This document shows positions 3,005 through 63,901 of a stretch of DNA of 64,000 nucleotides, one piece after another. The translations under genes were made by a program, and so were the position numbers. The DNA is taken from assembly GCF_028464065.1 (NCBI RefSeq), contig NZ_CP116808.1, positions 620,001 to 684,000 of the forward strand, in the 5' to 3' direction. The stretch is from Saprospira sp. CCB-QB6. Lineage in GTDB: Bacteria > Bacteroidota > Bacteroidia > Chitinophagales > Saprospiraceae. The notes under the pieces were generated by a model. The model saw nothing but the letters and a program-made list of their open reading frames with translations, was not told the DNA's origin and did no database searches. Numbering within the stretch: position 1 is the first letter of the stretch; every line of letters starts with the position of its first letter.

Positions 3005-3123
3005 GGGGCCTCCGCCTCGCTGCGCTCGTCGGCGCTACGTTCCGCAGCTCGCTATTCGCTCGGCCCTCCGCCAGCTTTGCTGGCTCGGTCTGGCCTACGG
3101 CCACTGCTGCACATCGCTAGGCC
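3005..3123 (+). repeat. GC-rich hairpin element, type A (copy 1)
   Basis: Starts GGGGCCT and ends ATCGCTAGGCC, with the conserved blocks CGCTACGTT, GCTCGGCCCT and GGTCTGGCC. The second hairpin is GCCAGC-ttt-GCTGGC and the third GGCC-tac-GGCC. It sits in the divergent interval between the 2110-2973 lipoprotein gene and rimO. The rest of this interval (3124-3401) holds the rimO promoter region and no gene. Confidence 0.85.
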
Positions 3124-3347
3124 AAATGCAAATTCTTCGCTTCAAGTATGCTTTGACAAAAGCAAAAGAATAGCTCTCTCTTTGGCCCCAACGCTCCACC
3201 CTACAAAGCTGCAAAACCCCCTACACAAAAAATAAATTCTACTCTCTACTCTAAAAAAAAACTTCTTTGAACTAAAGTTCCCTAAAAAAGAGCCCCGCAA
3301 AAATGCCTAAAAGTTGGCCAACAAAGGCAATTTTCGTTCAACTTCTT

Positions 3348-3355
3348 TATCTTTG
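3348..3355 (+). promoter_or_regulatory. Putative Bacteroidota -7 box upstream of rimO
   Basis: TATCTTTG fits the TAnnTTTG consensus of the Bacteroidota primary sigma factor and lies 46 nt before the rimO ATG. No convincing -33 TTTG is visible at the expected spacing, so the call is tentative. Confidence 0.35.
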
Positions 3356-3401
3356 CGCCTACCCTAATCGGAATTAGGGCCAAAAATTAGAACGAAAGAA
3401 A

Positions 3402-4727
3402 ATGAAAACCAAAAAGATAGGAAAGGATAAGGTCAATGTGATCACCATGGGCTGCTCTAAAAACATGGTCGACTCCGAAATCCTTATGCACCAACTCCGT
3501 GTCAACGATTTTGAGGTCAGCCACGATAGCGAAGAAGATGATTCGGATATTATTATTATCAATACTTGCGGATTTATCGACCGAGCCAAAGAGGAATCAA
3601 TCAATACAATCCTCGCCTATGCAGACGAAAAGGCCGAGGGCAATATTGAAAAATTATACGTCACGGGCTGCTTATCTGAACGCTACAAAGAGGACCTCCA
3701 AAGAGAAATCCCCGAAGTAGACGCTTTCTTTGGTACTCTTGAGCTGCCCGCCCTACTCGAAAAACTAGAGGCCGATTATCGCCAAGATTTACTAGGCGAA
3801 CGCATGCTCATGACTCCGCCTCATTACGCTTATGTCAAAATTTCGGAAGGCTGTAACCGTACCTGCTCTTTTTGTGCCATCCCCCTTATGCGCGGCAAAC
3901 ACATTTCTAAACCCATCGAAGATTTGGTCCAAGAAGTTAAAGGCCTAGTCAAAAATGGCGTGAAAGAAGTAATGCTCATCGCTCAAGAACTCACTTATTA
4001 CGGCCTCGACATTTATAAAGAACGCCGTCTTGCCCAATTACTACATGCCCTCAACGAAATTGAAGGCCTAGAGTGGATCCGCCTACACTACGCCTATCCC
4101 TCAAAATTCCCCACAGACGTTTTTGACGCTATCCGAGAGCTGCCCAAGGTCTGCAATTATCTCGATATGCCCCTACAACATATCAATACGGAAGTACTCA
4201 AAAGAATGCGCCGCCAAATTGACCGCCAAGGGACCAAAGAAGTGATCGAGGAAGCTCGTCGACTCGTTCCCGGTATTGCCGTGCGTACCACTTTCCTCGT
4301 TGGCTTCCCCGGCGAAACAGAAGAAGAATTTGAAGACCTCCTCGCCTTTGTCGAAGAAATGCGCTTCGAACGCGTTGGCGTTTTTCAATACTCTCATGAA
4401 GAAAATACCCTAGCCCATCAGCTAGAAGATGATATTAGCCCAGAGGTAAAAACCGAACGCGCTAACCGCCTTATGCAAGTCCAACAAGCTATCTCTTTCG
4501 AACTCAACCAAGAAAAAATTGGGCAACAGCTCAAGGTTTTGGTCGACCGCATCGAAGGAGGCTACTTTGTAGGCCGCAGCGAATTTGACTCCCCAGAAGT
4601 TGATAATGAGGTCCTTATCGAAATGCAAGAAAACGATTATCTCCGCCTTGGTGATTTTGCCTGGGTAGAAATTACCGATGCAACAGAATACGACCTCTTC
4701 GCAAAGATTTTTCCTAAAGAAAAATAA
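3402..4727 (+). CDS. rimO: Ribosomal protein S12 methylthiotransferase RimO
   Basis: A 441-residue radical-SAM methylthiotransferase that adds a methylthio group to an Asp of ribosomal protein S12. The N-terminal UPF0004 domain has the auxiliary-cluster cysteines C18 (in MGCSKNMVDSE), C56 and C90. The radical SAM motif CNRTCSFC gives C151, C155 and C158. A C-terminal TRAM-like region runs from about residue 375. The MGCSKN signature separates RimO from MiaB. Length is normal for the family. The ATG is preceded by an A-rich stretch, as is usual in this phylum. A strong terminator follows the stop. Confidence 0.96.
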   Translation: MKTKKIGKDKVNVITMGCSKNMVDSEILMHQLRVNDFEVSHDSEEDDSDIIIINTCGFIDRAKEESINTILAYADEKAEGNIEKLYVTGCLSERYKEDLQREIPEVDAFFGTLELPALLEKLEADYRQDLLGERMLMTPPHYAYVKISEGCNRTCSFCAIPLMRGKHISKPIEDLVQEVKGLVKNGVKEVMLIAQELTYYGLDIYKERRLAQLLHALNEIEGLEWIRLHYAYPSKFPTDVFDAIRELPKVCNYLDMPLQHINTEVLKRMRRQIDRQGTKEVIEEARRLVPGIAVRTTFLVGFPGETEEEFEDLLAFVEEMRFERVGVFQYSHEENTLAHQLEDDISPEVKTERANRLMQVQQAISFELNQEKIGQQLKVLVDRIEGGYFVGRSEFDSPEVDNEVLIEMQENDYLRLGDFAWVEITDATEYDLFAKIFPKEK

Positions 4728-4732
4728 AAAAT

Positions 4733-4778
4733 AAGCCTTCCCCTGACAAATTCGATTGGGGGAAGGCTTCTAGTTTTT
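4733..4778 (+). terminator. rimO terminator
   Basis: The perfect stem AAGCCTTCCCC (4733-4743) with GGGGAAGGCTT (4759-4769) is followed by a T-rich tail. It lies a few bases after the rimO stop codon. Confidence 0.8.
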
Positions 4779-4897
4779 GTATCTTATAAGAGAGCGCCTT
4801 TAAAATAATGGTCCCTGACCAACTTAGTTTAAAGGAACTCGGATACCACACAGATCATCCAAAACCATCGGCCTGACCGAAGAAAAATGAATTGCCT

Positions 4898-5749: not shown

Positions 5750-5772
5750 TCGCTAAGCGATGGATTAAAATA

Positions 5773-5806
5773 AAGCCGCATTCTCTACTTAGAGAATGCG
5801 GCTTTT
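5773..5806 (+). terminator. accD terminator
   Basis: The stem AGCCGCATTCTCT/AGAGAATGCGGCT with a short loop is followed by TTTTCT, about 25 nt after the accD stop. Confidence 0.8.
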
Positions 5807-5823
5807 CTATTGATCCTATTTTG

Positions 5824-5972
5824 CGGCGGACAGGGCGCGCAGCGCCCGCGGGCCTAGCGATGTGAAGGGGGGCGGCAAAGCCGCAGACCCAGCGGGCCTA
5901 GCCCGCGCAGGGCCGAGCAGACCTGCGAGCCCTGAAACGTAGCGCCGACGAGCGCAGCGAGGCGGAGGCCCC
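5824..5972 (-). repeat. GC-rich hairpin element, type A (copy 2)
   Basis: The minus-strand copy begins GGGGCCT at 5972 and reaches CATCGCTAGGCC at 5851, then runs into an extra palindrome (GGGCGCGCAGCGCCC). Hairpin 2 is GCGGGC-tag-GCCCGC and hairpin 3 is GCGGC-ttt-GCCGC. It begins about 24 nt after the stop of the 5996-7432 kinase gene and in the same sense. Confidence 0.85.
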
Positions 5973-5995
5973 AAAACACAACAAAAATACAGTTG

Positions 5996-12060: not shown

Positions 12061-12150
12061 GGGGCCTTCGCAGCTTTGCTGCGGAGGTACGTTTACTCCC
12101 TTTGGTCATCGAACTGCGGACTAAAGTCCTTGTTGTCGCAGCTCGCTGCT
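12061..12150 (+). repeat. GC-rich hairpin element, diverged partial type A
   Basis: Starts GGGGCC, has a first hairpin GCAGC-ttt-GCTGC, a recognisable TACGTTT block, another small hairpin (GGACT-aa-AGTCC) and CGCAGCTCGCTGCT, then stops where the full copy begins at 12156. It is a degraded or rearranged head-to-tail neighbour of that copy. The interval before it (11893-12060) is AT-rich and holds the presumed prpE promoter, with no gene seen. Confidence 0.65.
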
Positions 12151-12155
12151 GTTTT

Positions 12156-12269
12156 GGGGCCTCCCGCCTTCGGCGGGCGCTACGTTTCGCAGCTCGCTCT
12201 TCGCTCGGCCCTGCGGCGGCTTTGCCGCCTAGGTCTGGCCTGACGGCCACTGCTGCACATCGCTAGGCC
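12156..12269 (+). repeat. GC-rich hairpin element, type A (copy 3)
   Basis: A full copy from GGGGCCT to ATCGCTAGGCC. Hairpin 1 is CCCGCC-ttc-GGCGGG and hairpin 2 is GGCGGC-ttt-GCCGCC. It lies between two minus-strand genes, antisense to both. The 12270-12383 stretch beyond it has no gene. Confidence 0.85.
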
Positions 12270-12383: not shown

Positions 12384-12527
12384 AATAGGCGGCAAAGCCG
12401 CCTTGGCCGAAGGCCAAAAGGCCCAGCGCTGCGGAGCGGGTGGCCGAAGGCCAGACCGAGCTGGCGAAGCCAGCGAAGGGCCGAACAGACCTGTGAGCCC
12501 CGCAGCATAGCGGCGGCCGCGGGCCCC
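12384..12527 (-). repeat. GC-rich hairpin element, type A (copy 4)
   Basis: A diverged minus-strand copy beginning GGGGCCCGCGG at 12527. It keeps GTTCGGCCCTTC, hairpin 2 GCTGGC-ttc-GCCAGC, GGTCTGGCC and hairpin 3 GGCC-ttc-GGCC, and ends CAGCGCTGGGCC, followed by two more small palindromes (GGCC-ttc-GGCC and GGCGGC-ttt-GCCGCC). It begins about 60 nt after the stop of the MDR gene, in the sense direction. Confidence 0.8.
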
Positions 12528-12529
12528 TA

Positions 12530-12561
12530 AAAAAAAAGAAGCTACATTTCTGCAGCTTCTT
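12530..12561 (-). terminator. Terminator of the MDR oxidoreductase gene
   Basis: On the minus strand AGAAGCT, a short loop and AGCTTCT are followed by eight or more T. It sits between the gene end (12587) and the hairpin element. Confidence 0.65.
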
Positions 12562-16099: not shown

Positions 16100-16212
16100 C
16101 AGGGCCCACAGCACCCGCAGGCAATTTTATGGGGACTTCCCCCTCATTCATAGATTTTCGCAAAGCGAAACCGCTTTTGCGCTGGGTTTTAACCCGCCGG
16201 CGGGGCAGCCCC
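16100..16212 (-). repeat. Repeat module, type C (solo copy)
   Basis: Contains CCCTCATTCATAG, TTCGCAAAGCGAAACC, GCGCTGGGTTTTAACCCGCC and the terminal GGGGCAGCCCC. The same ordered blocks occur inside the elements at 29519-29609 and 23657-23745. The end GGGGCAGCCCC is the reverse complement of the GGGGCTGCCCC that opens type B elements. It ends 15 nt before the next ATG. Confidence 0.7.
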
Positions 16213-19390: not shown

Positions 19391-19403
19391 TCAATTATTT
19401 TTT

Positions 19404-19524
19404 GGGGCTGCCCCGCCCTGCGGGCGGGTCGGGCCATTGCGCAGCTCGCAAGTCTGCTCGGCCCTGCAGCGCTTTCAGCGCTTTGGTCTGCCGCCTGCGG
19501 CGGCCCTGCTACAGCCCCTCAGCC
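19404..19524 (+). repeat. GC-rich hairpin element, type B (copy 1)
   Basis: Starts GGGGCTGCCCC 13 nt after the purA stop, in the sense direction. It shares TCTGCTCGGCCCTGC and GGTCTG with type A but has GGGTCGGGC in place of CGCTACGTT and ends CCCTCAGCC. Hairpin 2 is AGCGCT-ttc-AGCGCT and hairpin 3 is CCGCC-tgc-GGCGG. It is followed by GCTGTAGGTTAAAACCTACAGC, a palindrome like the last arm of type C. Confidence 0.8.
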
Positions 19525-19608: not shown

Positions 19609-19744
19609 CAGGCCCGAAGGGCCGCACTGGCTGAGGGATGGTAGGGGGTGGCCGAAGGCCAGACCAAGCCAGCTTGCTGGCGATGGGCCGAGCGAGCAGC
19701 GAGCCCCCGAACAGCCCGACCCGAATGCAATGAGGGGCAGCCCC
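19609..19744 (-). repeat. GC-rich hairpin element, type B (copy 2)
   Basis: A minus-strand copy starting GGGGCTGCCCC at 19744 and reaching CCCTCAGCC near 19629, then GGCCC-ttc-GGGCC. Hairpin 2 is GCCAGC-aa-GCTGGC and hairpin 3 GGCC-ttc-GGCC. The first hairpin is imperfect in this copy. It follows the lepB 3' end in the sense direction, so the purA/lepB convergent interval (19391-19799) holds two copies facing one another and no gene. Confidence 0.8.
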
Positions 19745-23626: not shown

Positions 23627-23763
23627 GGGGCCTCCCGCAGCAAGCTGCGGGCGCTACGTTTAATTCATGAGGGTTTCACCCCTCATTTATATATAATCGC
23701 AAAGCGATACCACAGTTGCTGTGGGTTTTAACCTACAGCTAAAAACAGCCAGATCGCTAGGCC
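23627..23763 (+). repeat. GC-rich hairpin element, chimaeric type A/type C
   Basis: Opens as type A (GGGGCCT, hairpin 1 CCCGCAGC-aa-GCTGCGGG, CGCTACGTTT). It then switches to the type C series (TTCATGAGGGTTTCACCC, ATCGCAAAGCGATACC, GCTGTGGGTTTTAACCTACAGC) and closes as type A (ATCGCTAGGCC). The central blocks of type A are missing. It overlaps the presumed 5' end of the rsmB-like gene, in antisense orientation. Confidence 0.75.
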
Positions 23764-25287: not shown

Positions 25288-25426
25288 AGCAGGCCCAAAG
25301 GGCCGCAGGCCTAGCGATGTGCAGGGGGGCGCCGCAGGCCAGACCAAGGCGCTTTGCGCCGCAGGGCCGAGCGAATAGCGAGCCCCGAAACGTAGCGCCG
25401 CAAGGCGAAGCCGCAGCGGAGGCCCC
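25288..25426 (-). repeat. GC-rich hairpin element, type A (copy 6)
   Basis: A minus-strand copy from GGGGCCT at 25426 to CATCGCTAGGCC near 25308, then GGCCC-ttt-GGGCC. Hairpin 2 is GGCGC-aaa-GCGCC. It begins 12 nt after the stop of the GNAT gene, in the sense direction, and sits just upstream of the rlmD start. Confidence 0.85.
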
Positions 25427-28179: not shown

Positions 28180-28292
28180 GGGGCCTCCTGCCTAGGGCAG
28201 GCGCTACGTTTCGGGGCTCGCTGATCGCTCGGCCCTGCGGCGCAAAGCGCCTTGGTCTGCGGCTACGCCGCCCCCCTTCACATCGCTAGGCC
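28180..28292 (+). repeat. GC-rich hairpin element, type A (copy 7)
   Basis: GGGGCCT to CATCGCTAGGCC. Hairpin 1 is CCTGCC-tag-GGCAGG, hairpin 2 GGCGC-aaa-GCGCC and hairpin 3 GCGGC-tac-GCCGC. It is followed by an additional arm AGGCGGC-t-GCGCCGCCT. It lies between two minus-strand genes, antisense to both. The whole interval 28072-28373 holds the ohr regulatory region, this element and a GC-rich hairpin at about 28330-28354, and no gene. Confidence 0.85.
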
Positions 28293-29414: not shown

Positions 29415-29609
29415 CTGGCTGAGGGATGGCAGTGGGTGGCCGAAGGCCAGACCCAGCAGGCGAAGCCTGCGCAGGGCCGAGCGAGCAGCGAGCCCCGACA
29501 CAGCCCGACCCGCCCGATCATTCATGAGGGTTTTCACCCTCATTTTGTATAGCTTCGCAAAGCGATACCGCTTTGCGCTGGCTTTCAAGCCCGCGGAAGG
29601 GGCAGCCCC
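29415..29609 (-). repeat. GC-rich hairpin element, type B with nested type C module
   Basis: On the minus strand it opens GGGGCTGCCCC at 29609. The type C series follows (GCGGGCTTGAAAGCC, GCAAAGCGGTATCGCTTTGCG, ATGAGGGTGAAAACCCTCAT). At about 29518 it resumes the type B blocks GGGTCGGGCTG, GCTCGCTCGGCCCTGC, hairpin 2 GCAGGC-ttc-GCCTGC, GGTCTGGCC-ttc-GGCC and CCCTCAGCC. It begins 10 nt after the stop of the 29619-30428 gene, in the sense direction. Confidence 0.8.
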
Positions 29610-33130: not shown

Positions 33131-33266
33131 CAGGCGGCTTCGCCGCCGCAGGCCTAGGGACTTGTAAGGGGGGCCGCAGGCCCGACCGAGCTGCTTTAGC
33201 AGCGAAGGGCCGAGCAGACCTGCGAGCCCTGAAAAGGCCCGCAGCAGCTTGCTGCTGAGGCTCCCC
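33131..33266 (-). repeat. GC-rich hairpin element, type A (copy 8)
   Basis: A minus-strand copy with a slightly altered head (GGGGAGCCT), hairpin 1 CAGCAGC-aa-GCTGCTG, a degenerate CGCTACGTT block, TGCTCGGCCCTTC, hairpin 2 GCTGC-ttta-GCAGC and an AGTCCCTAGGCC end, then GGCGGC-ga-GCCGCC. It lies in the divergent interval between adenosine deaminase and the thioesterase gene. Confidence 0.8.
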
Positions 33267-33304
33267 CTCCTAAAATAGCATTTCAAAACTCTTTAGATTC
33301 TAGC

Positions 33305-33874: not shown

Positions 33875-33991
33875 GGGGCTGCCCCTCGCTTCGCTCGGGT
33901 CGGGCTGTGCGTGGGCTCGCTGCTCGCTCGGCCCTGCGCAGGCTTCGCCTGCTGGGTCTGGCCTTCGGCCACCCACTACCATCCCTCAGCC
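33875..33991 (+). repeat. GC-rich hairpin element, type B (copy 4)
   Basis: GGGGCTGCCCC to CCCTCAGCC. The first arm is CTCGCT-tc-GCTCGG-like, hairpin 2 GCAGGC-ttc-GCCTGC and hairpin 3 GGCC-ttc-GGCC. It follows the thioesterase gene in the sense direction. The remaining 33992-34195 has no gene and shows a small GCCC-ttc-GGGC hairpin near 34157. Confidence 0.85.
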
Positions 33992-38244: not shown

Positions 38245-38360
38245 GGGGCCTCAGCAGCTAAAGCTGCTGCGCTATGTTGCGCAGCTCGCAGTTCTGCTCG
38301 GCCCTGCGGCCAAAGCGCCTTGGTCTGCGGCTGCGCCGCCCTGCTCCACAGCGCTAGGCC
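38245..38360 (+). repeat. GC-rich hairpin element, type A (copy 9)
   Basis: GGGGCCT to CAGCGCTAGGCC. Hairpin 1 is CAGCAGCT-aa-AGCTGCTG, hairpin 2 is imperfect (GGCCAAAGCGCC) and hairpin 3 is GCGGC-tgc-GCCGC. A further partly palindromic tail (CTGCGGCTTGCAGC, GGCC-ttcgcccc) continues to about 38400. It is antisense to both neighbouring minus-strand genes. Confidence 0.8.
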
Positions 38361-41273: not shown

Positions 41274-41407
41274 CAGGCGGCGAAGCCGCCGCAGGCCTAG
41301 CTGCCTGTAAGGGTGGCCGAAGGCCAGACCAAGGCGCTTTGCGCCGAAGGGCCGAGCAGAACTGCGAGCCCTGCAAGGGAGCGCCGCAGCAAAGCTGCGG
41401 AGGCCCC
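41274..41407 (-). repeat. GC-rich hairpin element, type A (copy 10)
   Basis: A minus-strand copy beginning GGGGCCT at 41407, hairpin 1 CCGCAGC-ttt-GCTGCGG, hairpin 2 GGCGC-aaa-GCGCC, hairpin 3 GGCC-ttc-GGCC, CTAGGCC near 41293, then GGCGGC-ttc-GCCGCC. It starts 49 nt after the stop of the 41456-42805 gene, in the sense direction, and lies upstream of mnmG. Confidence 0.85.
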
Positions 41408-44860: not shown

Positions 44861-44974
44861 GGGGCCTCCGCAGCTTTGCTGCGGCGCTACCTTTCAGGGC
44901 TCGCAGTTCTGCTCGGCCCTTCGGCGCAAAGCGCCTTGGTCTGGCCTTCGGCCACCCTTACAGATCGCTAGGCC
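44861..44974 (+). repeat. GC-rich hairpin element, type A, between mlaE and mlaF
   Basis: GGGGCCT to ATCGCTAGGCC. Hairpin 1 is CCGCAGC-ttt-GCTGCGG, hairpin 2 GGCGC-aaa-GCGCC and hairpin 3 GGCC-ttc-GGCC. It begins 32 nt after the mlaE stop and precedes mlaF by 78 nt, so it lies inside what should be one transport operon. Confidence 0.85.
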
Positions 44975-46506: not shown

Positions 46507-46553
46507 AAAAAATGCTGCCCCTTATAAATAAGGGGCAGCATTTTTTGTTTTTG
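46507..46553. terminator. Second copy of the mlaF-type terminator hairpin
   Basis: ATGCTGCCCCTT, ATAA-type loop and AAGGGGCAGCATTTTTT with T-run are almost the same as at 45843-45885. It lies upstream of the P-loop gene and next to the 41-bp repeat array. Confidence 0.65.
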
Positions 46554-46589
46554 GGGCTGACGGTTGGGCTCATGAAGGACATGCTACTG

Positions 46590-46919
46590 CCGCCACAGAG
46601 CTAATCCGAGATGTCCGTAGACCTCCGTGGCCACCACGGAGCCAATCTGAGATGTCCGTAGACCTCCGTGGCCGCCACGGAGCCAATCCGAGATGTCCGT
46701 AGACCTCCGTGGCCGCCACGGAGCCAATCCGAGATGTCCGTAAACCTCCGTGGCCGCCACGGAGCCAATCCGAGATGTCCGTAAACCTCCGTGGCCGCCA
46801 CGGAGCCAATCCGAGATGTCCGTAAACCTCCGTGGCCGCCACGGAGCCAATCCGAGATGTCCGTAAACCTCCGTGGCCGCCACGGAGCCAATCCGAGATG
46901 TCCGTAGACCTCCGTGGCT
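46590..46919. repeat. 41-bp tandem hairpin repeat, 8 copies
   Basis: Eight consecutive units of exactly 41 bp, marked by ATGTCCGTA at 46611, 46652, 46693, 46734, 46775, 46816, 46857 and 46898. Each unit has the perfect palindrome CTCCGTGGCCGCCACGGAG (8-bp stem, 3-nt loop), followed by CCAATCCGAG. Variation is small (TAGA/TAAA, one or two other bases, more in the edge copies). All three minus-strand frames stay open, because 41 is not a multiple of 3 and the repeat has no stops, so the long frames here are not evidence of genes. The rest of the interval (46404-46506 and 46920-47161) is AT-rich, with no gene seen. Confidence 0.9.
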
Positions 46920-47161
46920 AACACTCCACAGTTTTGTATCTATTTATTGGTCCTTCCATTTTCAAAGGGTAACAAGCTATTAAACAGAAAGATATTGAAA
47001 TAGCAGCTTGGCAATCCTAATTTAAACATGTATATACTATAGCCCTAAAGACAAATATCAAAAAAGTTATAACTTTTTTAGTAAACTTCTTGATGTTTCA
47101 AAACATTAGCCCTACACTTGTAATGTTATAACTATTTTATAAACAATAAAACTTCAGGCAG

Positions 47162-48820: not shown

Positions 48821-49220
48821 AGAACTCCTTTAAAAACAACTGTTCTTGCGCTTGAAAGCTAGTTTTGCGCTCTTTGTCGTTATTTTTCTCCACGATAGCG
48901 CTGCTATCCTGTCAAAAAATGCCTAAAACAGCAAAAAACTAGTACTCAAGCGCGGAGAAGAAACTCGTCTTTAAAGCAGTTCTCAGAACTCCTCTTAAAA
49001 ATAACTCCTCTTGCAGCTGACAACTAATTTTACTCTCTTGCTTCGTTTTTTTTCTCCACGATAGCGCTGCTATCCTGTCAAAAAATGCCTAAAACAGCAA
49101 AAAACTAGTACTCAAGCGCGGAGGAAGAAACTCGTCTTTAAAGCAGTTCTCAGAACTCCTCTTAAAAACAACTCCTCTTGCGCTTGAAAGCTAGTTTTGT
49201 GTTCTTTGTCGTTATTTTTC
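48821..49220. repeat. About 165-bp tandem direct repeat (2.4 copies)
   Basis: Copies start with AGAACTCCT at 48821, 48985 and 49152 (periods 164 and 167). Each has CTTTAAAAACAACT, TCTCCACGATAGCGCTGCTATC (a palindrome, GATAGC-gct-GCTATC) and AAACAGCAAAAAACTAG. The third copy stops after GTTATTTTTC at 49220, exactly where a type A hairpin element begins. No gene is present in 48753-49490. A small hairpin with a T-run (GACCT-aa-AGGTC) at 48787-48810 has no associated gene. Confidence 0.8.
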
Positions 49221-49376
49221 AGCGGCCGCAGGCTGCTTTTGTTTGCCTGCAGGGCATTTTTTTGGCCTAGCGATGTGGAAGGGGGGCCGCAGGCCAGACC
49301 GAGCCGCTGAAAGCGGCGAAGGGCCGAGCGAATAGCGAGCCCTGCAACGTAGCGCCCGCCGCAGGCGGGAGGCCCC
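49221..49376 (-). repeat. GC-rich hairpin element, type A (copy 12), joined to a truncated tandem repeat
   Basis: A minus-strand copy starting GGGGCCT at 49376 with hairpin 1 CCCGCC-tgc-GGCGGG, hairpin 2 GCCGCTttcAGCGGC and hairpin 3 GGCC-tgc-GGCC, reaching CATCGCTAGGCC at 49264. A GC-rich tail to 49221 follows (GCCTGCAGG, GCAGGCTGC). It replaces the rest of the third copy of the 165-bp repeat. Confidence 0.8.
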
Positions 49377-53247: not shown

Positions 53248-53360
53248 GGGGCCTCCCGCCTGCGGCGGGCGCTACGTTGCAGGGCTCGCTATTCGCTCGG
53301 CCCTTCGCCGCTTTCAGCGGCTCGGTCTGGCCTGCGGCCACCCCTTCACATCGCTAGGCC
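53248..53360 (+). repeat. GC-rich hairpin element, type A (copy 13)
   Basis: GGGGCCT to CATCGCTAGGCC. Hairpin 1 is CCCGCC-tgc-GGCGGG, hairpin 2 GCCGCT-ttc-AGCGGC and hairpin 3 GGCC-tgc-GGCC. It begins 7 nt after the stop of the T9SS gene, in the sense direction. Confidence 0.9.
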
Positions 53361-53667: not shown

Positions 53668-56600
53668 CTAGCGAAGCAAATTCACTGCGCCCTTAATCAC
53701 AGTCGTCTCTCCATCAATATAGAGCACTTCTGCAGACCAAGCAAAGGTTCCAGAGTTCATTGGTTTGCCCTTAAAGCTACCATCCCAACCCTGTAAAGGA
53801 TCATTCGGATCAAGGTTCAAGCCCTCATACACCAATTCGCCCCAGCGGTCATAGACTCTAAAGCTTAGAATCTGCTCTACCTTTTCATCAGCTTGAACAA
53901 AGAAACGATCATTATTCCCATCACTGTTCGGCGTAAAGGCCGTAGGGGCTGCTGCATTTCTAGGCTTAACCATCTTCACCACAATCGAGCTATCCTGAAC
54001 ACAGCCCGAAGCATTCGTGGCCGTAAACTGATAAATGCCTGCATCATAAGGCGTCAGTGAAGCCGTCAAACTGCTATCCACCAATGCCCCAGAGTTAATC
54101 TCTGTCCAAGCCCAAATCGCCCCAGTCGTATCATTCAAGTCTGCAAATAGCGTCAACGTATCTCCATACTCCAACACATACTCCACTTCGCCTGAATCTA
54201 AGGCTGGACCAAAGCTCGTCAGGAAGAATGGATCTGCCGCCTCTACTGTTACTAGCGTATCATACATACAACCATTATTGTCTCGGATATACAAAGGATA
54301 AATTCCCGACTCCAAACCAACAAAAAGATTGCCTCCTGTAAAGTTTACACTATCCAAACTGTAAGTGTAGCCCCCCAATAGGGTCGAGCCACCAATTCCA
54401 TCTACTTGGATACTTCCGTTCGCATCATCCACACAGGCTACGCCTCTAATACTGAGGTTGCCAATACCTACTTCCGTCGGATTCGCCAAATTGATGCTCG
54501 TATCTGCCTTACAGCCATTCGCATCTTCCACATTAAGCGTATAGTTGCCCGCAGCTATGCTGTCTAAGCTTGGCGTTGCCAACCCATTCGACCAGATATA
54601 AACATAAGGTGATATTCCGCCTTCTACTGTAGAACCTAAGGCGCCTGTACTGTTATTGTAGCAATCTACTGCCCGTACTTGGTTCAAGCTCACCGACAAT
54701 TCCGAAGGCTCGCCTACCACATAGCTAAAGCTATCCACACAACCATTGATCGACTGGACCACTACTTCGTACTCGCCTGCCGCTACATTCGTAATGCTCG
54801 TTCCTACAACGCCATTACTCCAATAGCTCGCCTGCAAAGGCTCATTCGAGTTCGTTATGCTTATAGAACCTGTAGACTCTCCATAACAAGAGGCATCTTC
54901 TATCGCTACCGTAATGCTCAAGGCCAAGGCCTCTCCCACTACAGCCGTATCTACCTGCGTACAGCCATTCAGATCCGTTACACTCACATAATAAGTCCCT
55001 GCAGATAGACCCGTCGCTACATTCGTCGTCTGACCCAAGGGATCTGACCACTGATAGCTCAAGGTCCCTGTTCCCCCTGAAGCTGTTACCTGTGCACTTC
55101 CATCTGCGCTACCTGCACAACTGGCATCCGTTACATTCACGATCTGGCTCGTGATTCCTGAACTCTCGTTCACTGTTGCTGTACGGACCACGGAACAGCC
55201 ATTCCCATCCGTGATTGTCACACTATAGGTTCCTATACTCAAGTTCGAGTTTACATCTGTACTCGCTCCATTCGACCAAGCATAAGTATAGTCTCCATTA
55301 CTATTGGGCGTACCCCCACTCACAATGGCCGTAATTTGACCAGAAGCACCTCCAAAACATAGGGCATCTGCTGTATTCAATGTCGCTACTAAAGCACTTG
55401 TTGGCTCCATGACAATCACCTGACTAAGCGTCTGACAACCATTCGCATCCGTTACCGTCAACACATAAGTACCTGCGGCCAAACCGCTAATACTTTGACC
55501 CGTCATGCCATTGGACCATGCAAAGCTATAAGGTAGCGTTCCCCCTGTCAAGAAGGCCGTCGCTGTACCATCTGAGCCCCCTTTACAATTCACCCCTGTC
55601 GTCCGAATCGTATCGACAACCAAGAGCGCGGGCTCTACCAAGTTCACCGTTAAGGTCGTACTACAACCATTCGCATCTGTAGCCGTTACCGTATGCTGTC
55701 CGCCTGCTAAACTTGTAGCACTAGCTGTCATCTCGCCATTGGGCCAAGCATAGCTATAGGGGGCTGCCCCTCCTGTAGCAACTACCGTTGCACTTCCATC
55801 CATATCTCCATGACAGCTCGGATTCACACTTGAGACAAAGCTCAATACTACTGGATCGGGATTTTGCAATAAAACCTGATCCGTTACCGAACAGCCTTGG
55901 CTATCCACAACCACTACCGAATAAGCACCTGGCGCCAAGTTCGTCGCAGTCGCTGTCGTTTGACCATCTGACCAAAGGTAAGTATATGGGGCCGTGCCTC
56001 CTGTCGGTACCGCTGTTGCACTTCCACTATTCGCTCCAGCACAGGCTGCCGCATTAGTCGTAATGCTGGTTGTCAGCAATGTAGGCTCGCCTAGAACATA
56101 GCTTTCTACAAGCTGACAAGCATTCCCATCTGTTACCGTCACACTATGTGTGCCCGCTGACAAGCCCACGGCCGTAGCCGTTCCTTGGCCATCTGACCAG
56201 AAGTAAGTGTAAGGAAGCGTACCTCCTTGAACCATTACGGCTACAGTTCCATCTGTACTTCCATTACAGCTAGGTTCATTCCCACTCATACTCGCTGTTA
56301 ACGCTGCTGGCTCTTCTACTTCTGTAGTCGATACCATATCACAGCCATTCGCATCCGTTACCGTCACTTCATAAGTACCCGCCAATAGGCCTGTAATCGT
56401 CGCAGCAGTCATCCCATTATCCCAGTTGTAGCTATATGGAGCCGTTCCGCCTGTTGCACTTACCGTAGCCGTTCCATCGCTACCTCCTGAACAAGACACA
56501 TCTGTATCACTCAGACTCAACTGTATGGCTGTTGGCTCCGTAATCGTTACCGATACAGGCAACACACAGTTATTCCCATCACGAACCTCTACCGTGTAAG

Positions 56601-59600
56601 TCCCTGCACAAAGGCCCGTAAAGTTATTATTGCTACTGAATACATTACCCGTTTGACCAGGACCTAATATTCGGTATTCATAGCCATTAACACCTAGCGT
56701 TCCTGTGCCAGATACGGCCGTAGCGATAATCTGTCCATCACAATCATTGGCACAAAAGACATTCACCTGCTGGATTGTCGCATCCAAAGGTACAGGATCC
56801 GCCAAACTAATACTATCTATTGCCGTACAGCCAGAGGCATCCGTCACCGTTACCGCATAAGTCCCTGCCGCCAAGTTCGTCGCAAGTGTACCATTCTGCG
56901 CCTGTGGACCAGACCATGCATATACATAAGGCGATACGCCTCCACTAGCCGTCACCTGTGCCGCTCCATCCGAGGCTCCTGGACAGCTAATCGCTGCTCC
57001 ATTGTAATTAGAGTATTGTTGGACATTCAATACAATCTCTGCAGGTTGAGAAATAGTAATTGTATTTGTTGCTGAACAGCCTCGACTATCTGTAGCTGTA
57101 AGTGTGTATGTACCAGCTTCTATATTATTGAGATCTTCAGTAAGTTCTCCATTAGACCATACAAAAGTATAATTAGGTGTTCCTCCTTGAGCATCTGCAT
57201 CAATACTTGCATCTTCAGCACCAAAACAACCAGCATCATTAGAGCTCAAAAAGTTTACTTGTACAGCTGTAGCAGGCTCACCAATCAAAGCATTATCTGT
57301 AATAGTACACCCATTAAGATCAGTTACTGTCAATCGATAAGTTCCTGCTGTTAAGTCACTATTGACTGCTAAACCACTATTAGTAGGTGACCAGTGGTAT
57401 ACATAAGGAGCTGTTCCTCCAGATACAGTGGCTGAAGCTTGGCCATCATTACCAAAACGACAACTTACAGAATCTGTGATTAAACTAAGCTGCAATGCTG
57501 GAGGGCTACTTACCTGAGCACTGTCAACATATGTACAGCCATTAGCATCAGTTACTGTTAGGTAGTACTGTTGTGCAGACAAGCCCGTGGCTGTTTGTGT
57601 AGTTTGGCCATTAGACCAAATATAACTATAGGTTCCAGTTCCCCCTGTGGCATTTACAGTAAGTTCTCCATCCGTGTTATAAGAACAACTGATACTATTA
57701 GTTGTAAAAGTAGCAGTGATGGCTGTAGGTTCTGTAATTTGGATACAGGTATCATGCAAACAACCGTTTACATCTGTAATTGTTACGCAGATAGAACCAG
57801 CTGACAAATTTGTAGCAGTTTGGGTTGTCTGACCATCGCCCCAAAGGTAAGTATAAGGTGCACTTCCATTGATAGGGGTAATCGTTGCACTAGCATCATT
57901 TCCACCATTGCATGACACCATACTAGCACTTGTCGTAGAAGTAATAATAACTCCATTGTTAACAACAACGCTATCCACTAATTGACAACCATTCGCATCT
58001 GTAACTTCTACAGTATAAGTTGCAGCCTCAAGGTTCATAGCAGTAGCAGTACTTTGCCCATTCGCATCATTCCACAGATAGGTATAAGGACTAGTTCCAC
58101 CTGAAGCTATAACTGTTGCACTTCCACTTGCTTGTCCAAAACAAGCAGCATCTATAGCCGTAAGACTAGCTGTAAGCGCAATTGTGGGTTCATTAACTAC
58201 AATAGAATTGATATGCAAACAACCATTCGCATCTGTAACACTAACAGTGTAAGTAGCTGCTGTTAAATTATTAGCTGTAGGTGTATTTTGAGCCAAAGGA
58301 TCATCCCATATATAAACATAGGGAGCAACGCCACCTGTTACAACAGCAGAAGCTGATCCATCTCCTCCACCAAAACAGTTTACATCCGTACTACTCATTG
58401 TGCTGCTTACTGCAGTAGGTTCAGAAATCACTACTTGATCAGTTATACTACAGCTATTTGCATCTGTAATTGTTACATTATAAATTCCCGCAACTAGGTT
58501 ATTAGCAGTAGCGGTGGTTTGATTTAAAGCATCATCCCAACTATAGGTGTAAGGAAAAGTTCCTCCTTGGGCTGTAGCCGTCGCCTCCCCATCATTTCCC
58601 GTATTGCAGCTCACGTCTTGACCTGTTGTTGTTATACTCAGAGCCACAGGTTCTGTAATTGTTACTATAGAGCTTACGCCACATCCAAGGCTAGCGTCAT
58701 TTACTTCAAACGTATAGGTTCCTGCTGCAAGACCGGTAAAGTTAGGACTAGATTGGACAGCTCCTAAGCTTGGGGCGATTTGCTGAAAACTTAATGCTCC
58801 TATATCGTTACTCACAACAAAATCTACCTCTCCATCTGCAAAGCCGTTACAACTAGCATTAGTTTGATTGTTGATAGTCAGAATAAGAGGGCAACTCAAA
58901 CTTGTACAAGTAATAGAATCAATAGGATTTGGACAAATCCCAGTCCCTCCCAAAGCACGCACATAAATATGGACAGAAGTACTTGGTGCCAAACCAGTTA
59001 CTGTATGGCTTAGCGCTCCTGTTGGGCTAAGCCAGGTTAGCCCTGAATCTAAACTCACCTCATATCCTGTAGCTGAAGGAACTGCGCCCCAATCAAACGT
59101 AATATCATTCGCAGTAGTCATTCCACAATTTACCGTAGGTTGAGCTAAAGAGCTTCCTACCTCAATTCGTACAGAATCTACATAGGTACACCCCACTGCA
59201 TCGGTGAGGGTTACACTATAATCTGAGCTAACAGTAGGTCCAGCTGCAGGATTTGCGCAAGTCGTACAACTTAGGTTTGGTCCAGACCAAACATAAGTAT
59301 TACTAGCAGAAGAAGGGGCAAAGTAAATAGACCAATTGTTAATTGTCCCTGCTCCCCCTAAAGAATTATGAGAAACAGCTAAAGACCAAGTTCCATTACT
59401 AGCTCCTAAGTTAAGATTAGAAAAAGGCTCTTCAGGAGAAACAATCGCATTGGCTGGTATATTTGAAAAAGGAGTTGAATATGCTGTAATAGAGGTTGTT
59501 GCACTAGGAGAAAAGCAGACATTATTAAAAGCTCCTGTATTTATCCCTCCATTTCCGCTAGATAAATCAATACTGTCTCCATTCGGGGATACTAATGTTA

Positions 59601-61017
59601 AGTTTATATTAGAGGTTGGGTTATTCGTAATATTTACACATACAGAATCAATGCTGTTACTAGTTAAAACTAAAGGTGATACAGCTCCTACTGTAATATC
59701 TGAACGTACATATCCGCCAAAGTTAATACCAACACTATTGGGGTTGCTAAAAACAGAAGGAGTTGTGACCGCACCTGGCAAATTAGCAGAGAGATAAGTA
59801 GAATCTCCATTACAAACTGTATCGGGTGCTGCAGTAATTAGAGTTGCCCCTGTATCACAGCAAACAATTACCGTTTGCTGCTCGCTTCCGACACAACCAT
59901 CTCCACTATCCCAATCATAAATAATATTATGAACTCCTCCTCCAGCAATTGAAGGGTCCCAACTAGCTGTACCATTACCATTGTCAACAACACCTAGTCC
60001 AGAAAAAGTACCTATACCTTCAGGAGTACCTAAGTTAATAATGGTACAACCCGCACCACCATTCAGTATGGTATTAGAAATAATGGTATTGGACCCTGAC
60101 ATTCGGATTTCATTACTAAATGTTCCGCTGTTCCCCAAATCACACCACTCCATTGAGTAGGAAGTCGCAGGATCTAAATACTCAATTGTCGTTTGGAACT
60201 GACTATTTGAGGGCAATTGCCCCTGATAGTTCCCTCCCGTATTTGTTGGCCCCCAATAGGCAATAATATTACCTGTTGCATTGGGTCCATCATAAACGCG
60301 CAAAGTATTCTGCGTGGCAGAAAAAGCATCTGTTATGATATCAAAAGCGAAACCAGGGGTGATTCCTAAATCGCCTGGAGAGGCAGTTGTAGGATCGGCT
60401 GTTAATGTAATAGCCCCTCCAGTACAATCATAGGGACTACTCACTGTAAGATCATTAAAATTAACGGGGGCACAGGGTAAAAGGATACCACAATCTGTTG
60501 TCCCACTCCCCCCTGACTGACTTGCTGATATCTGAGTAGGCTGATTAGAGTAATTGGTAATCAGTAATACATATACACTTCCAGGAGTAGCTCCAGTGAT
60601 TGTTACTGTTTCATTAGCGCTCGCAGAGTAACTACAAGACTCTATTGCTCCACTAGCCCCCCCATTACCGAGGTTGCCACATTGTCCAATAGCTGCACCT
60701 GCGTTATTAAAGGGGCCGTAGAGAATAAAATCAATATCTACGTTATTGCTATTTGTCAAGTTAATAGTCAGACTGCCGGGTTGATCAATTTGTAGATAGT
60801 ACCAAGCGGGGTTGGGTTGAGACCCTAAACAACCATAGTTATTTCCTGCAGGCGCATCTGGTTGATTCGTCCCTGCAGGAAAAGTAACGCCCGAGCCAGA
60901 ACAAAAGGGCTCTGCGGCTGCACAAGTAGCCCCTTGGGCCGAGGCTGCTGCTGGCATCAGCAGCAAAGCCAAAAGTGGTAATAGAAAAAATCGAGTCATC
61001 TGCTGGTAGGATAGCAT
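53668..61017 (-). CDS. Giant SprB-repeat adhesin with T9SS type B (CHU_C) sorting domain
   Basis: A 2449-residue secreted surface protein. The signal peptide ends PAAASAQ. Residues about 30-180 form a pre-peptidase/beta-sandwich region, and about 185-300 a CUB-like part. A P/Homo-B-like domain lies at about 424-567 (SVCVNITNNPTSNINLTLVSPNGD), then a fibronectin-III-like part (about 625-705). Twenty SprB repeats of about 77 residues follow (about 705-2260), each with a SCxGxxDG start, a GGTxPYTYxWS core and a VTDANGC end. A last PKD-like part and the gliding-type C-terminal domain (TAFTPNSDGNNDRF...YDRWGELVYEG) end the protein. In Flavobacterium, SprB is the mobile adhesin moved by the gliding motor; this is a likely functional counterpart. 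Confidence 0.9.
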   Translation of the reverse strand: MLSYQQMTRFFLLPLLALLLMPAAASAQGATCAAAEPFCSGSGVTFPAGTNQPDAPAGNNYGCLGSQPNPAWYYLQIDQPGSLTINLTNSNNVDIDFILYGPFNNAGAAIGQCGNLGNGGASGAIESCSYSASANETVTITGATPGSVYVLLITNYSNQPTQISASQSGGSGTTDCGILLPCAPVNFNDLTVSSPYDCTGGAITLTADPTTASPGDLGITPGFAFDIITDAFSATQNTLRVYDGPNATGNIIAYWGPTNTGGNYQGQLPSNSQFQTTIEYLDPATSYSMEWCDLGNSGTFSNEIRMSGSNTIISNTILNGGAGCTIINLGTPEGIGTFSGLGVVDNGNGTASWDPSIAGGGVHNIIYDWDSGDGCVGSEQQTVIVCCDTGATLITAAPDTVCNGDSTYLSANLPGAVTTPSVFSNPNSVGINFGGYVRSDITVGAVSPLVLTSNSIDSVCVNITNNPTSNINLTLVSPNGDSIDLSSGNGGINTGAFNNVCFSPSATTSITAYSTPFSNIPANAIVSPEEPFSNLNLGASNGTWSLAVSHNSLGGAGTINNWSIYFAPSSASNTYVWSGPNLSCTTCANPAAGPTVSSDYSVTLTDAVGCTYVDSVRIEVGSSLAQPTVNCGMTTANDITFDWGAVPSATGYEVSLDSGLTWLSPTGALSHTVTGLAPSTSVHIYVRALGGTGICPNPIDSITCTSLSCPLILTINNQTNASCNGFADGEVDFVVSNDIGALSFQQIAPSLGAVQSSPNFTGLAAGTYTFEVNDASLGCGVSSIVTITEPVALSITTTGQDVSCNTGNDGEATATAQGGTFPYTYSWDDALNQTTATANNLVAGIYNVTITDANSCSITDQVVISEPTAVSSTMSSTDVNCFGGGDGSASAVVTGGVAPYVYIWDDPLAQNTPTANNLTAATYTVSVTDANGCLHINSIVVNEPTIALTASLTAIDAACFGQASGSATVIASGGTSPYTYLWNDANGQSTATAMNLEAATYTVEVTDANGCQLVDSVVVNNGVIITSTTSASMVSCNGGNDASATITPINGSAPYTYLWGDGQTTQTATNLSAGSICVTITDVNGCLHDTCIQITEPTAITATFTTNSISCSYNTDGELTVNATGGTGTYSYIWSNGQTTQTATGLSAQQYYLTVTDANGCTYVDSAQVSSPPALQLSLITDSVSCRFGNDGQASATVSGGTAPYVYHWSPTNSGLAVNSDLTAGTYRLTVTDLNGCTITDNALIGEPATAVQVNFLSSNDAGCFGAEDASIDADAQGGTPNYTFVWSNGELTEDLNNIEAGTYTLTATDSRGCSATNTITISQPAEIVLNVQQYSNYNGAAISCPGASDGAAQVTASGGVSPYVYAWSGPQAQNGTLATNLAAGTYAVTVTDASGCTAIDSISLADPVPLDATIQQVNVFCANDCDGQIIATAVSGTGTLGVNGYEYRILGPGQTGNVFSSNNNFTGLCAGTYTVEVRDGNNCVLPVSVTITEPTAIQLSLSDTDVSCSGGSDGTATVSATGGTAPYSYNWDNGMTAATITGLLAGTYEVTVTDANGCDMVSTTEVEEPAALTASMSGNEPSCNGSTDGTVAVMVQGGTLPYTYFWSDGQGTATAVGLSAGTHSVTVTDGNACQLVESYVLGEPTLLTTSITTNAAACAGANSGSATAVPTGGTAPYTYLWSDGQTTATATNLAPGAYSVVVVDSQGCSVTDQVLLQNPDPVVLSFVSSVNPSCHGDMDGSATVVATGGAAPYSYAWPNGEMTASATSLAGGQHTVTATDANGCSTTLTVNLVEPALLVVDTIRTTGVNCKGGSDGTATAFLTGGTLPYSFAWSNGMTGQSISGLAAGTYVLTVTDANGCQTLSQVIVMEPTSALVATLNTADALCFGGASGQITAIVSGGTPNSNGDYTYAWSNGASTDVNSNLSIGTYSVTITDGNGCSVVRTATVNESSGITSQIVNVTDASCAGSADGSAQVTASGGTGTLSYQWSDPLGQTTNVATGLSAGTYYVSVTDLNGCTQVDTAVVGEALALSITVAIEDASCYGESTGSISITNSNEPLQASYWSNGVVGTSITNVAAGEYEVVVQSINGCVDSFSYVVGEPSELSVSLNQVRAVDCYNNSTGALGSTVEGGISPYVYIWSNGLATPSLDSIAAGNYTLNVEDANGCKADTSINLANPTEVGIGNLSIRGVACVDDANGSIQVDGIGGSTLLGGYTYSLDSVNFTGGNLFVGLESGIYPLYIRDNNGCMYDTLVTVEAADPFFLTSFGPALDSGEVEYVLEYGDTLTLFADLNDTTGAIWAWTEINSGALVDSSLTASLTPYDAGIYQFTATNASGCVQDSSIVVKMVKPRNAAAPTAFTPNSDGNNDRFFVQADEKVEQILSFRVYDRWGELVYEGLNLDPNDPLQGWDGSFKGKPMNSGTFAWSAEVLYIDGETTVIKGAVNLLR

Positions 61018-61061
61018 AGATTTTAGCTTGATTTAAAAGGCTATTGCCTCTAAGCGATAAA

Positions 61062-61082: not shown

Positions 61083-61107
61083 TTGTGGGGGAGGTTGGGT
61101 GCTATAC

Positions 61108-61243
61108 AGGCCCCTTAGGGGCCGCAGGCTGAGGGATGGAGAGAGTGGCCCGCAGGGCCAGACCGAAGCGCTTTAGCGCTGAAGGGCCGAGCGAGCAGCG
61201 AGCTGCGAAACAGCCCGACCCGAGCGAAGCGAGGGGCAGCCCC
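61108..61243 (-). repeat. GC-rich hairpin element, type B (copy 5)
   Basis: A minus-strand copy from GGGGCTGCCCC at 61243 (hairpin 1 CTCGCT-tc-GCTCGG-like) through GGGTCGGGCTG, GCTCGCTCGGCCCTTC, hairpin 2 AGCGCT-aa-AGCGCT, GGTCTGGCC and CCCTCAGCC, then GGCCCC-taa-GGGG. It begins 10 nt after the stop of the small secreted-protein gene, in the sense direction. Confidence 0.85.
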
Positions 61244-61252
61244 TTATCCATC

Positions 61253-61549: not shown

Positions 61550-61619
61550 CTAATTTAGTTTGATTGATCTTAAAACGTATACATTGATTATTCTGCTGCA
61601 TCTTATTATATAACGCAGG

Positions 61620-62693: not shown

Positions 62694-62702
62694 AAGTAGC
62701 GT

Positions 62703-63071
62703 TTATCGGTCCAATAATTTTTTGAGCTCCTCTAAATCCGCGTCCGTCATTCCCTCCTGCTCTATAAGCGCAGAAAGCAAGGAGTGTACAGAACCCGAAA
62801 AGACTTTCTCTACCGCATTTTCCAAAAAATCTTGCTGATAGGTTTCCTTAGACACCAAAGGGTAGTACTGATGACTCCTCCCCTTTTCCATATGCCCAAT
62901 GTACTTCTTCTTATCTTGCAAAATGCGGACTATAGTAGAAACGGTATTGTAAGCCGGTTTGCTGGCCTCTGGCCAATGCGCTAAGATATCTTTAATATAC
63001 GCCCGCTCTAATTTCCATAAAATATCCATCACCTTTAGCTCCAAAGGCGTGAGCATAATTTTCTTTTCCAT
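62703..63071 (-). CDS. BlaI/MecI-family transcriptional repressor
   Basis: A 122-residue winged-helix repressor. LTPLELKVMDILWKLERAYIKDIL and PAYNTVSTIVRILQDKKKYIGHMEKGRSHQYYPLVSKETY are typical of BlaI/MecI, with the C-terminal dimerisation helices. Together with the M56 peptidase downstream it forms a BlaR/BlaI-like pair. No beta-lactamase or PBP gene is nearby, so the regulated target is unknown. Confidence 0.9.
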   Translation of the reverse strand: MEKKIMLTPLELKVMDILWKLERAYIKDILAHWPEASKPAYNTVSTIVRILQDKKKYIGHMEKGRSHQYYPLVSKETYQQDFLENAVEKVFSGSVHSLLSALIEQEGMTDADLEELKKLLDR

Positions 63072-63215
63072 AAGCTTTAGTTATTTTTCAGCCCCAAAAA
63101 TAAGGCTTTTTCTGCTTTGCCTAAAAAATCAACGCTAAAGACCACAATATTTAGCCCAAAGGAACGTCTTAAAGCCCGAAAAGTCACTTTTTTATCCTTA
63201 AAAACAAAAGTTTTT

Positions 63216-63758
63216 ATGTCCGCAACATGCTCTCGCCTCTTGGCCATCTGCCTGCTCTTTAGCCTTTCAGCCTGTCACCTCCTAGAGGTTTCTAACAATA
63301 ATAATAGTAATGCCAGCAGTGGTAGCGCCACGGCTACCGCCTCCGCCTACATAGAACGCTTCAAACCTATCGCTATTGCCGAGATGAAACGAACGGGCGT
63401 TCCCGCTAGCATCAAAATGGCCCAAGCTATCCTCGAATCTGGCTACGGCCGCAGCGAACTCGCCAAAAAAGCCAATAACCACTTCGGAATCAAATGCGGC
63501 AGCAACTGGAACGGAAAAACCTATAAACTCAAAGCCTCTTGCTTCAGAGCCTATAGCAGCGCTGAAGAAAGCTTTAAACAACATTCCGACTTCCTCCGAA
63601 ATGGCAGCCGATATGCCGACCTCTTCAAACTCAAAACTACAGACTATAAAGGCTGGGCCAAAGGCCTCCGAAAAGCCGGCTATGCCACTTCTTCCTCCTA
63701 CCCTAGCAAACTAATCGAACTGATCGAAAGATACCGACTCCATCAATACGACCAATAA
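63216..63758 (+). CDS. Glucosaminidase-domain lipoprotein
   Basis: A 180-residue peptidoglycan hydrolase. The ATG giving MSATCSRLLAICLLFSLSAC yields a lipoprotein signal with Cys at about 20; a longer upstream frame adds a basic leader without function. A Ser/Asn/Ala-rich linker leads to a glucosaminidase domain (LYZ2/FlgJ type): GVPASIKMAQAILESGYGRSELAKKANNHFGIKC with the catalytic Glu (in ILESGYG), then the YSSAEESFKQHSDFLRN and WAKGLRKAGYATSSSYPSKLIELI segments. It would cut GlcNAc-MurNAc bonds. Divergent from the blaI-like gene. Confidence 0.9.
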   Translation: MSATCSRLLAICLLFSLSACHLLEVSNNNNSNASSGSATATASAYIERFKPIAIAEMKRTGVPASIKMAQAILESGYGRSELAKKANNHFGIKCGSNWNGKTYKLKASCFRAYSSAEESFKQHSDFLRNGSRYADLFKLKTTDYKGWAKGLRKAGYATSSSYPSKLIELIERYRLHQYDQ

Positions 63759-63788
63759 TCCAAAACAAGTTTTTCCCCTTTTTGTTTT

Positions 63789-63901
63789 GGGGCCTCCTGC
63801 CTTCGGCAGGCGCTACGTTGCAGGGCTCGCTGTTCGCTCGGCCCTTCAGCGCTAAAGCGCTTCGGTCTGGCCTAACGGCCCCCCTTCCACATCGCTAGGC
63901 C
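63789..63901 (+). repeat. GC-rich hairpin element, type A (copy 14)
   Basis: GGGGCCT to CATCGCTAGGCC. Hairpin 1 is CCTGCC-ttc-GGCAGG, hairpin 2 AGCGCT-aa-AGCGCT and hairpin 3 GGCC-taac-GGCC. It begins 31 nt after the glucosaminidase stop, in the sense direction. Confidence 0.9.

Follow-up and report, generated by a model that had tools for sequence, protein, structure and literature searches.

Which element lies between the genes of Saprospira sp. CCB-QB6 about every 3 kb, and why do its copies so regularly face in alternate directions? The 4.24-Mb genome of this marine gliding bacterium comprises a chromosome and one further contig of 53 kb. We analyzed a 64-kb stretch (the window; chromosome bases 620001-684000) for which a first-pass annotation had proposed a dense family of about 20 GC-rich intergenic hairpin elements with conserved blocks in a fixed order. 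Both the family and the block order are borne out: the window holds 18 copies of a short, noncoding core of approximately 115 nt, plus one place (23627-23763) that retains only the outer frame of the element. An orientation rule among neighboring copies, ends typical of miniature inverted-repeat transposable elements (MITEs) in a related genus, and swapping of modules between copies were absent from that annotation.

Abundance of the Core

Copies were found with an iterated nucleotide profile, at first in a 464-kb sample that was later extended. The first sample of 800 kb comprised 440 kb of contiguous sequence and 18 separate 20-kb pieces; a further 760 kb were held out of profile building. 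The profile identified 155 copies in the 464 kb, 259 in the 800 kb, and 251 in the held-out DNA; the pooled count (510 copies in 1.56 Mb) extrapolates to approximately 1,390 per genome, close to 4% of the total. The 53-kb contig also bears the core (8 copies in 20 kb, L031), with alternating orientation there too. Strands are given in the orientation of the first-pass annotation, GGGG end first; the folding strand, discussed below, is the opposite one.

The earlier estimate of one copy every 3 kb holds as an average (approximately 3.1 kb; 259 copies in 800 kb), but the spacing is uneven, with + then − pairs (median gap 1.4 kb) parted by longer − then + gaps (median approximately 3.5 kb). Each of the 13 positions originally listed holds a copy, although the six minus-strand starts were off by 20 to 43 bp (5824, for example, belongs to 5851-5972, and 49221 to 49264-49376). 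The element is too small to hold a protein gene of its own, as had been supposed, and mechanical open reading frames (ORFs) of at least 80 amino acids that overlap copies extend well beyond them. Nor does it match a known RNA family: Rfam release 15 gave no match in the window at the gathering threshold, and a search of four loci at E up to 5 returned six sub-threshold matches, none over a core. In the open-access literature on the organism, repeats, MITEs, and repeat orientation, we found neither the family nor such an orientation rule described; the 2012 genome paper on strain Lewin may mention it.

Orientation of Neighboring Copies

In the first sample, 214 of the 240 neighboring pairs alternate in orientation (5,000 orientation shuffles: mean 120, maximum 149); in held-out DNA the count is 218 of 247, so that approximately 11 to 12% of pairs break the alternation in either sample. 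The alternation results from an exclusion zone for close pairs of the same orientation. In the pooled DNA, 7 same-orientation pairs lie less than 2.5 kb apart, compared with approximately 109 expected from shuffled orientations; their number climbs between 2.5 and 3.5 kb and equals expectation beyond. The edge is sharper in the first sample than in held-out DNA, with 5 pairs versus 39 expected at 1.5-3 kb and 31 versus 30 at 3-4 kb. Below 1.5 kb, divergent pairs (GGGG ends facing) are also rare (4 versus approximately 36 expected), and convergent pairs are in excess (128 versus approximately 33). Among pairs less than 2.5 kb apart, those without an intervening gene call are convergent in 83 cases, same-orientation in 3, and divergent in 2; the corresponding counts with an intervening gene are 90, 4, and 37. 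A block of genes thus has inward-pointing GGGG ends at both of its borders or at neither.

Several simple causes were considered and set aside. Gene direction does not explain the pattern: elements lying between co-directional genes share the direction of those genes in 154 cases and oppose it in 142. Overlooked copies do not account for the exceptions: among 26 same-orientation gaps, an overlooked frame with both of its ends turned up in one, and a left-end fragment next to a known copy in three others. Partner matching within close + − pairs is likewise not supported; such pairs (under 600 bp, n = 63) are less alike than average, with a mean identity of 0.724, compared with 0.781 for farther + − pairs (n = 158), 0.774 for − + pairs (n = 211), and 0.750 for random pairs (short fragments were left out of the pair means). 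This lower likeness is as expected if near-identical close repeats are unstable. The orientation rule is strong, extends over kilobases, does not follow the genes, and has no ready explanation.

A weaker form of the effect occurs in G102, a genome from another genus of the family, in which 54 of 72 neighbors alternate (reached by 1 of 20,000 shuffles) and same-orientation pairs closer than 8 kb number 11, compared with approximately 24 expected. In small pieces of two other genomes, neighbors alternate in 4 of 10 pairs (G041) and in 4 of 5 (G018).

A Conserved Fold on One Strand

The folding of single copies is weak evidence for structure. One copy gave a z-score of -0.8 in the annotated orientation and -2.8 on the reverse strand; four more copies in the annotated orientation gave -1.6, -0.8, 0.0, and -2.2, and three copies folded in that orientation with DNA parameters gave -0.9 to -1.2. 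A structure was written by hand from 14 copies for the reverse strand and has nine helices, laid out as an outer helix P1 (GGCCT/AGGCC), hairpin 1, helix P2, and helix P3 with three arms inside it. With E up to 0.001, a covariance model made from this structure matched 464 kb of the source genome in 153 places, of which the best 150 were aligned; in 543 kb from other genera it had 74 matches with E up to 0.01, and all of these were aligned. Copies occur throughout the genome and in relatives, well beyond the window.

Among 149 distinct copies from the source genome, 95.0% of 5,423 cells are paired, and covariation is 0.427, compared with 0.128 in shuffles (standard deviation 0.004) and at most 0.060 in slid controls; all five measures used lie above all 500 shuffles and all slid versions. 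The 73 distinct copies from other genera, none of which entered the model, likewise exceed every shuffle and slid version (94.9% paired; covariation 0.262 versus 0.074 in shuffles, standard deviation 0.004, and at most 0.041 in slid controls). Alignments fitted to a model are expected to be somewhat biased towards it, yet covariation falls to approximately one-seventh or less when the structure is slid. Pairing of the opening and closing ends, proposed in the first-pass annotation, is confirmed by covariation: across the 149 copies one such pair is UA in 90, GC in 39, and CG in 14, and another is CG in 102 and UA in 41. Two positions of P2 pair poorly, columns 14-210 (unpaired in 42 of 149) and columns 11-213 (unpaired in 71 of 145, and in 60 of 73 copies from other genera); the latter pair is not regarded as demonstrated.

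Mismatches in paired columns are asymmetric (GU 105 versus AC 21; G-A 176 versus C-U 26), which favors the reverse of the strand first proposed as the folding one, although 75 of the 105 GU mismatches come from a single pair and the excess elsewhere is only 30 versus 21. On this strand hairpins 1 and 3 are mostly capped by C-GNA-G triloops, a type that is unusually stable in single-stranded DNA. The three-arm cloverleaf of the first-pass annotation was right in predicting a folded structure; the better-supported strand is the reverse, with four local hairpins, three long-range helices, and an extra multi-branch level. Compensatory change is strong both here and in other genera, and it supports a conserved multi-branched fold of one strand, as RNA or single-stranded DNA.

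Shared Positions and Exchange of Modules

Approximately 200 kb were examined against each of three congeners, counting only those regions where at least one genome of the pair carries an element; DNA identity to the congeners is 86 to 88% over one two-gene stretch. The same string of elements lies between the same two genes in 31 of 33, 38 of 41, and 33 of 37 regions. Nine regions differ in the three comparisons, and three of these places were aligned; none of the three is a clean empty site, and parts of the frame stay while the interior is replaced by other hairpins. At the frame at 23627-23763, one congener (G003) has an ordinary core.

Orthologous copies have a mean identity of 0.82 to 0.84, and their 60-nt flanks 0.69 to 0.77, yet the copy most similar to a given one within the compared region is its ortholog in only 41 of 113 cases. 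Together with the swapped hairpin modules, this suggests recombination or gene conversion between copies. Homogenization of adjacent copies is weak: the next, opposite-facing copy is the best match in 17 of 133 cases. In 38 ortholog pairs from the source genome (G000) and the congener G002, 160 of 177 two-sided stem changes keep pairing, and approximately 34 two-sided changes would be expected if the sides of stems changed independently; of 81 changes on one side only, 59 create or destroy a pair and 14 leave it intact. Either the fold is under selection, or copies convert one another, or both; the fold may have a use of its own. The Saprospira copies themselves seem to be fossils that no longer move.

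Ends and Distribution in the Saprospiraceae

How the family may have spread is suggested by G102, in which a first look gave 712 candidates (7 of them scored) and the profile gave 76 matches in 603 kb. There the core sits in a MITE-like unit that spans 170 to 226 bp and has inverted ends. An exact 8-bp duplication borders the end motifs on their outer side in 9 of the 76 copies, a count made without a shuffled control; the length is 8 in all nine, though 6 to 12 were allowed. A left-end pattern, with at most two mismatches allowed, matches G102 at 211 places and its reversed control at none; of 64 end-motif rows, 61 are no more than 400 bp away from a core. Two end-motif places in the 603 kb have no core nearby.

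Under strict filters, which may lose weak matches, the family was found in 25 of 150 genomes of Saprospiraceae and, in a sample of the phylum, in 2 of 296 genomes, which are likewise Saprospiraceae; within these samples it occurs only in this family. Two drafts placed in the same genus as the source (G004, and G005, which is 63% complete) gave no match to a DNA query consisting of a single copy.

Comparison with Known Repeats

In being small, intergenic, foldable, and devoid of protein, and in the terminal inverted repeats and 8-bp duplications of its G102 copies, the element resembles bacterial MITEs such as RUP, NEMIS, Bcr1, ERIC, YPAL, Nezha, and EFAR (PMC3733652). It differs in its approximately 1,390 copies, its long-range covarying multi-branch fold, and its orientation exclusion, as well as in having positions common to four species in the compared region and no detectable ends in Saprospira. 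Pneumococcal BOX and RUP are also small interspersed repeats with many copies per chromosome; they are compared here in outline only, and no orientation rule for them was seen in the text consulted (PMC3049150).

Repetitive extragenic palindromic (REP) sequences, BIMEs, and REPINs, which go with RAYT transposases, are likewise very numerous intergenic palindromic units; REPs are 20-40 bp long with a GTAG or CGTC tag, neighboring REPs alternate within BIMEs, many REP dimers are in opposite orientation, and the alternation is one inside clusters or dimers (PMC2817692, PMC3733652). The core, unlike these, has several helices in approximately 115 nt and alternates over kilobases with genes between. 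Inspection by eye found neither tag at the ends of the core. In the attC sites of integrons a single strand also folds and carries the signal, in that case as one imperfect hairpin rather than a multi-branched fold.

Origin of the Family and of the Orientation Rule

On balance we lean towards a structured repeat of MITE origin that is now immobile and whose close same-orientation neighbors have been purged. The elements would be copies of an old noncoding, MITE-like mobile element of this bacterial family, with an internal core able to fold on one strand, and would have spread through a transposase acting on terminal inverted repeats such as those of G102. In Saprospira the ends would have eroded from detection, leaving immobile copies at shared intergenic places with the fold kept and hairpin modules exchanged by recombination or gene conversion. 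Such an origin, with mobility since lost, would explain the core, the ends in G102, and the shared places. Same-orientation copies closer than approximately 2.5 to 3 kb would have been lost and selected against, because direct repeats delete the DNA between them; inverted neighbors, which only invert it, would be spared. The length scale may be close to that of the single-stranded gaps that arise during replication. Should such deletion be the cause, these genomes record how repeat instability shapes a chromosome, with a measured length scale.

A number of observations weigh against this account. No deletion was observed, and deletion does not explain why gene-free pairs are so often convergent and so seldom divergent. 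The exclusion is weaker in held-out DNA (15 same-orientation pairs versus 36 expected at 1.5-3 kb) and its edge blunter (29 versus 39 at 3-4 kb). A second repeat of the genome, AT-rich and 77 nt long (142 copies in 1.56 Mb; mean identity 0.73 versus 0.75 for the core), does not avoid direct pairs at close range (below 2.5 kb, 79 of its pairs have the same orientation and 107 the opposite one), which speaks against a general deletion hazard; it is an imperfect control, 176 of its 186 pairs having no called gene between them, and of gene-spanning pairs below 2.5 kb, 4 of 10 are direct for the AT-rich repeat and 4 of 131 for the core. Finally, Saprospira flanks have no detectable target duplication (shared 8-mers in 96 of 473, compared with a mean of 103 with shuffled partners) or terminal inverted repeat (inverted 7-mers 216 versus 245), so that the MITE origin there depends on the relative G102, and an oriented GGACCAA motif is the only possible mark of a far end.

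The absence of exclusion from a second repeat family would instead suit a functional, polar array, in which the folded strand (RNA or single-stranded DNA) binds a chromosome-organizing protein, opposite copies mark the ends of small domains, and orientation is selected. The exclusion zone in two separate samples of the genome and, more weakly, in another genus, the lack of gene-direction bias, the positions common to four species within the compared region, the compensatory change at fixed positions, and the alternation on the small contig are also consistent with such an array; the fraction of neighbors that break the rule, the low alternation in the G041 pieces, the replacement of interiors by other hairpins at some places, and the two congeneric drafts without a match are not. 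We know of no binding protein or phenotype, and consider the array unlikely. Its broader form, in which some 1,400 polar folded elements constitute a genome-wide architectural system, opposite copies delimiting small domains and a host factor reading the folded strand, seems to us slightly more doubtful; if a host factor does read the fold, this would be a new kind of chromosome element. The four species with shared positions, the genus with young-looking copies, and the relatives in which no copy was found provide a natural experiment.

Alternation would be automatic if the + − doublet were itself the mobile unit, as in a REP- or REPIN-like element that an HUH (Y1) transposase would move in the form of single-stranded DNA. 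The strand-specific fold, the triloops, and a doublet pattern that is its own reverse complement fit this idea, and the genome has three Y1 transposase genes. An association with them is not supported, however: two of the Y1 matches have their nearest core at approximately 840 and 930 bp, the third has none within 1.5 kb, and the general density predicts as much. Many + − pairs hold genes, and the related model in which + − intervals are mobile cassettes with cargo was rejected, since the genes that they enclose and those in − + intervals are equally conserved (29 of 40 and 72 of 104, respectively, occur in all three congeners). The G102 pieces have no close + − doublets and are nevertheless depleted in same-orientation pairs, and the G102 ends are of the inverted-repeat type with 8-bp duplications; transposition of this kind is improbable. 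A by-product of insertion, in which an existing copy blocks nearby insertions of the same orientation (polar target immunity), would give a fixed length scale, would act before selection, and would agree with the pattern in G102, where some copies look young. To our knowledge, target immunity does not depend on orientation, and young copies are few (9 with intact duplications); we rate this marginally below the doublet. Least probable is a cis-acting RNA of neighboring genes (a leader, riboswitch-like element, or terminator); the largely intergenic positions, the RNA-like covariation, and the nearness of the GGGG end to genes are compatible with one, but the lack of bias with gene direction argues against it, as does a folding strand that leads into an A-rich, not a T-rich, flank (the T-run precedes GGGG on the other strand).

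Gene Context and Flanking Motifs

Gene calls came from a simple codon-usage script, and 485 of the 510 copy midpoints lie outside them; 100 elements lie between convergent genes and 77 between divergent genes. The GGGG end is near genes, with a median distance of 50 bp from a stop and 100 bp from a start. GGACCAA occurs in the oriented sense on the GGCC side, mostly 20-80 nt out (80 versus 27 of 504 flanks), and may be the old right (far) end of the unit. The motif CTN(T/G)AG, of which CTGTAG is one form, occurs no more than 80 nt outside the GGCC end in 49 of 179 copies, compared with 15% of random places. In a genome with one or a few copies, a copy (L179) lies between an oxidoreductase-like frame and two other frames, which we take to encode Ku and a protein resembling a ligase.

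Copies in the Window and Other Repeats

The copies and related modules are listed in Table 1. The AT-rich repeat has hairpins of its own, is nested in hairpin 1 or replaces the interior of the core, and is often clustered with no genes between its copies.

Table 1. Core copies, the outer frame, and AT-rich modules (window positions unless a locus is named)
Positions	Strand	Feature	Found by
3005..3123	+	core copy	profile, covariance model
5851..5972	-	core copy	profile, covariance model
12156..12269	+	core copy; close + - pair with 12420..12531 in one intergenic region	profile, covariance model
12420..12531	-	core copy; partner of 12156..12269	profile, covariance model
16126-16198		AT-rich 77-nt module	
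19403..19524	+	core copy, GGGGCTG...CAGCC subtype	profile, covariance model
19629..19743	-	core copy, GGGGCTG...CAGCC subtype	profile, covariance model
23627..23763	+	outer frame (P1, hairpin 1, P2), interior replaced by AT-rich hairpins; outside the 18	alignment
23664-23738		AT-rich 77-nt module	
25308..25426	-	core copy	profile, covariance model
28180..28292	+	core copy	profile, covariance model
29417..29541	-	core copy, AT-rich module lodged in hairpin 1	profile, covariance model
29520-29591		AT-rich 77-nt module	
33151..33267	-	core copy	profile, covariance model
33875..33991	+	core copy, GGGGCTG...CAGCC subtype	profile, covariance model
38245..38360	+	core copy	profile, covariance model
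41294..41407	-	core copy	profile, covariance model
44861..44974	+	core copy	profile, covariance model
49264..49376	-	core copy	profile, covariance model
53248..53360	+	core copy, used as query	profile, covariance model
61127..61243	-	core copy, GGGGCTG...CAGCC subtype	profile, covariance model
63789..63901	+	core copy	profile, covariance model
L013 18515-19500		AT-rich 77-nt module	

A third module (TCGTCGAACTGCG, a hairpin, and TTGTTGTCGCAGCTCGCTG) adjoins some copies on the outer side of the GGGG end or replaces part of the core; it is found at approximately 12126-12155 of the window and in several GGGG-side flanks in other loci. Three 59-nt repeats with a spacing of approximately 165 bp (48830-49220) adjoin a core copy. 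Elsewhere in the window, a tandem array of approximately 10 units of 41 bp, 95-96% alike in the middle, occupies 46548-46957, and an ORF of 2,449 amino acids (53668-61017) contains at least 15 repeats, mostly 225-240 bp apart, and probably encodes a large repetitive surface protein.

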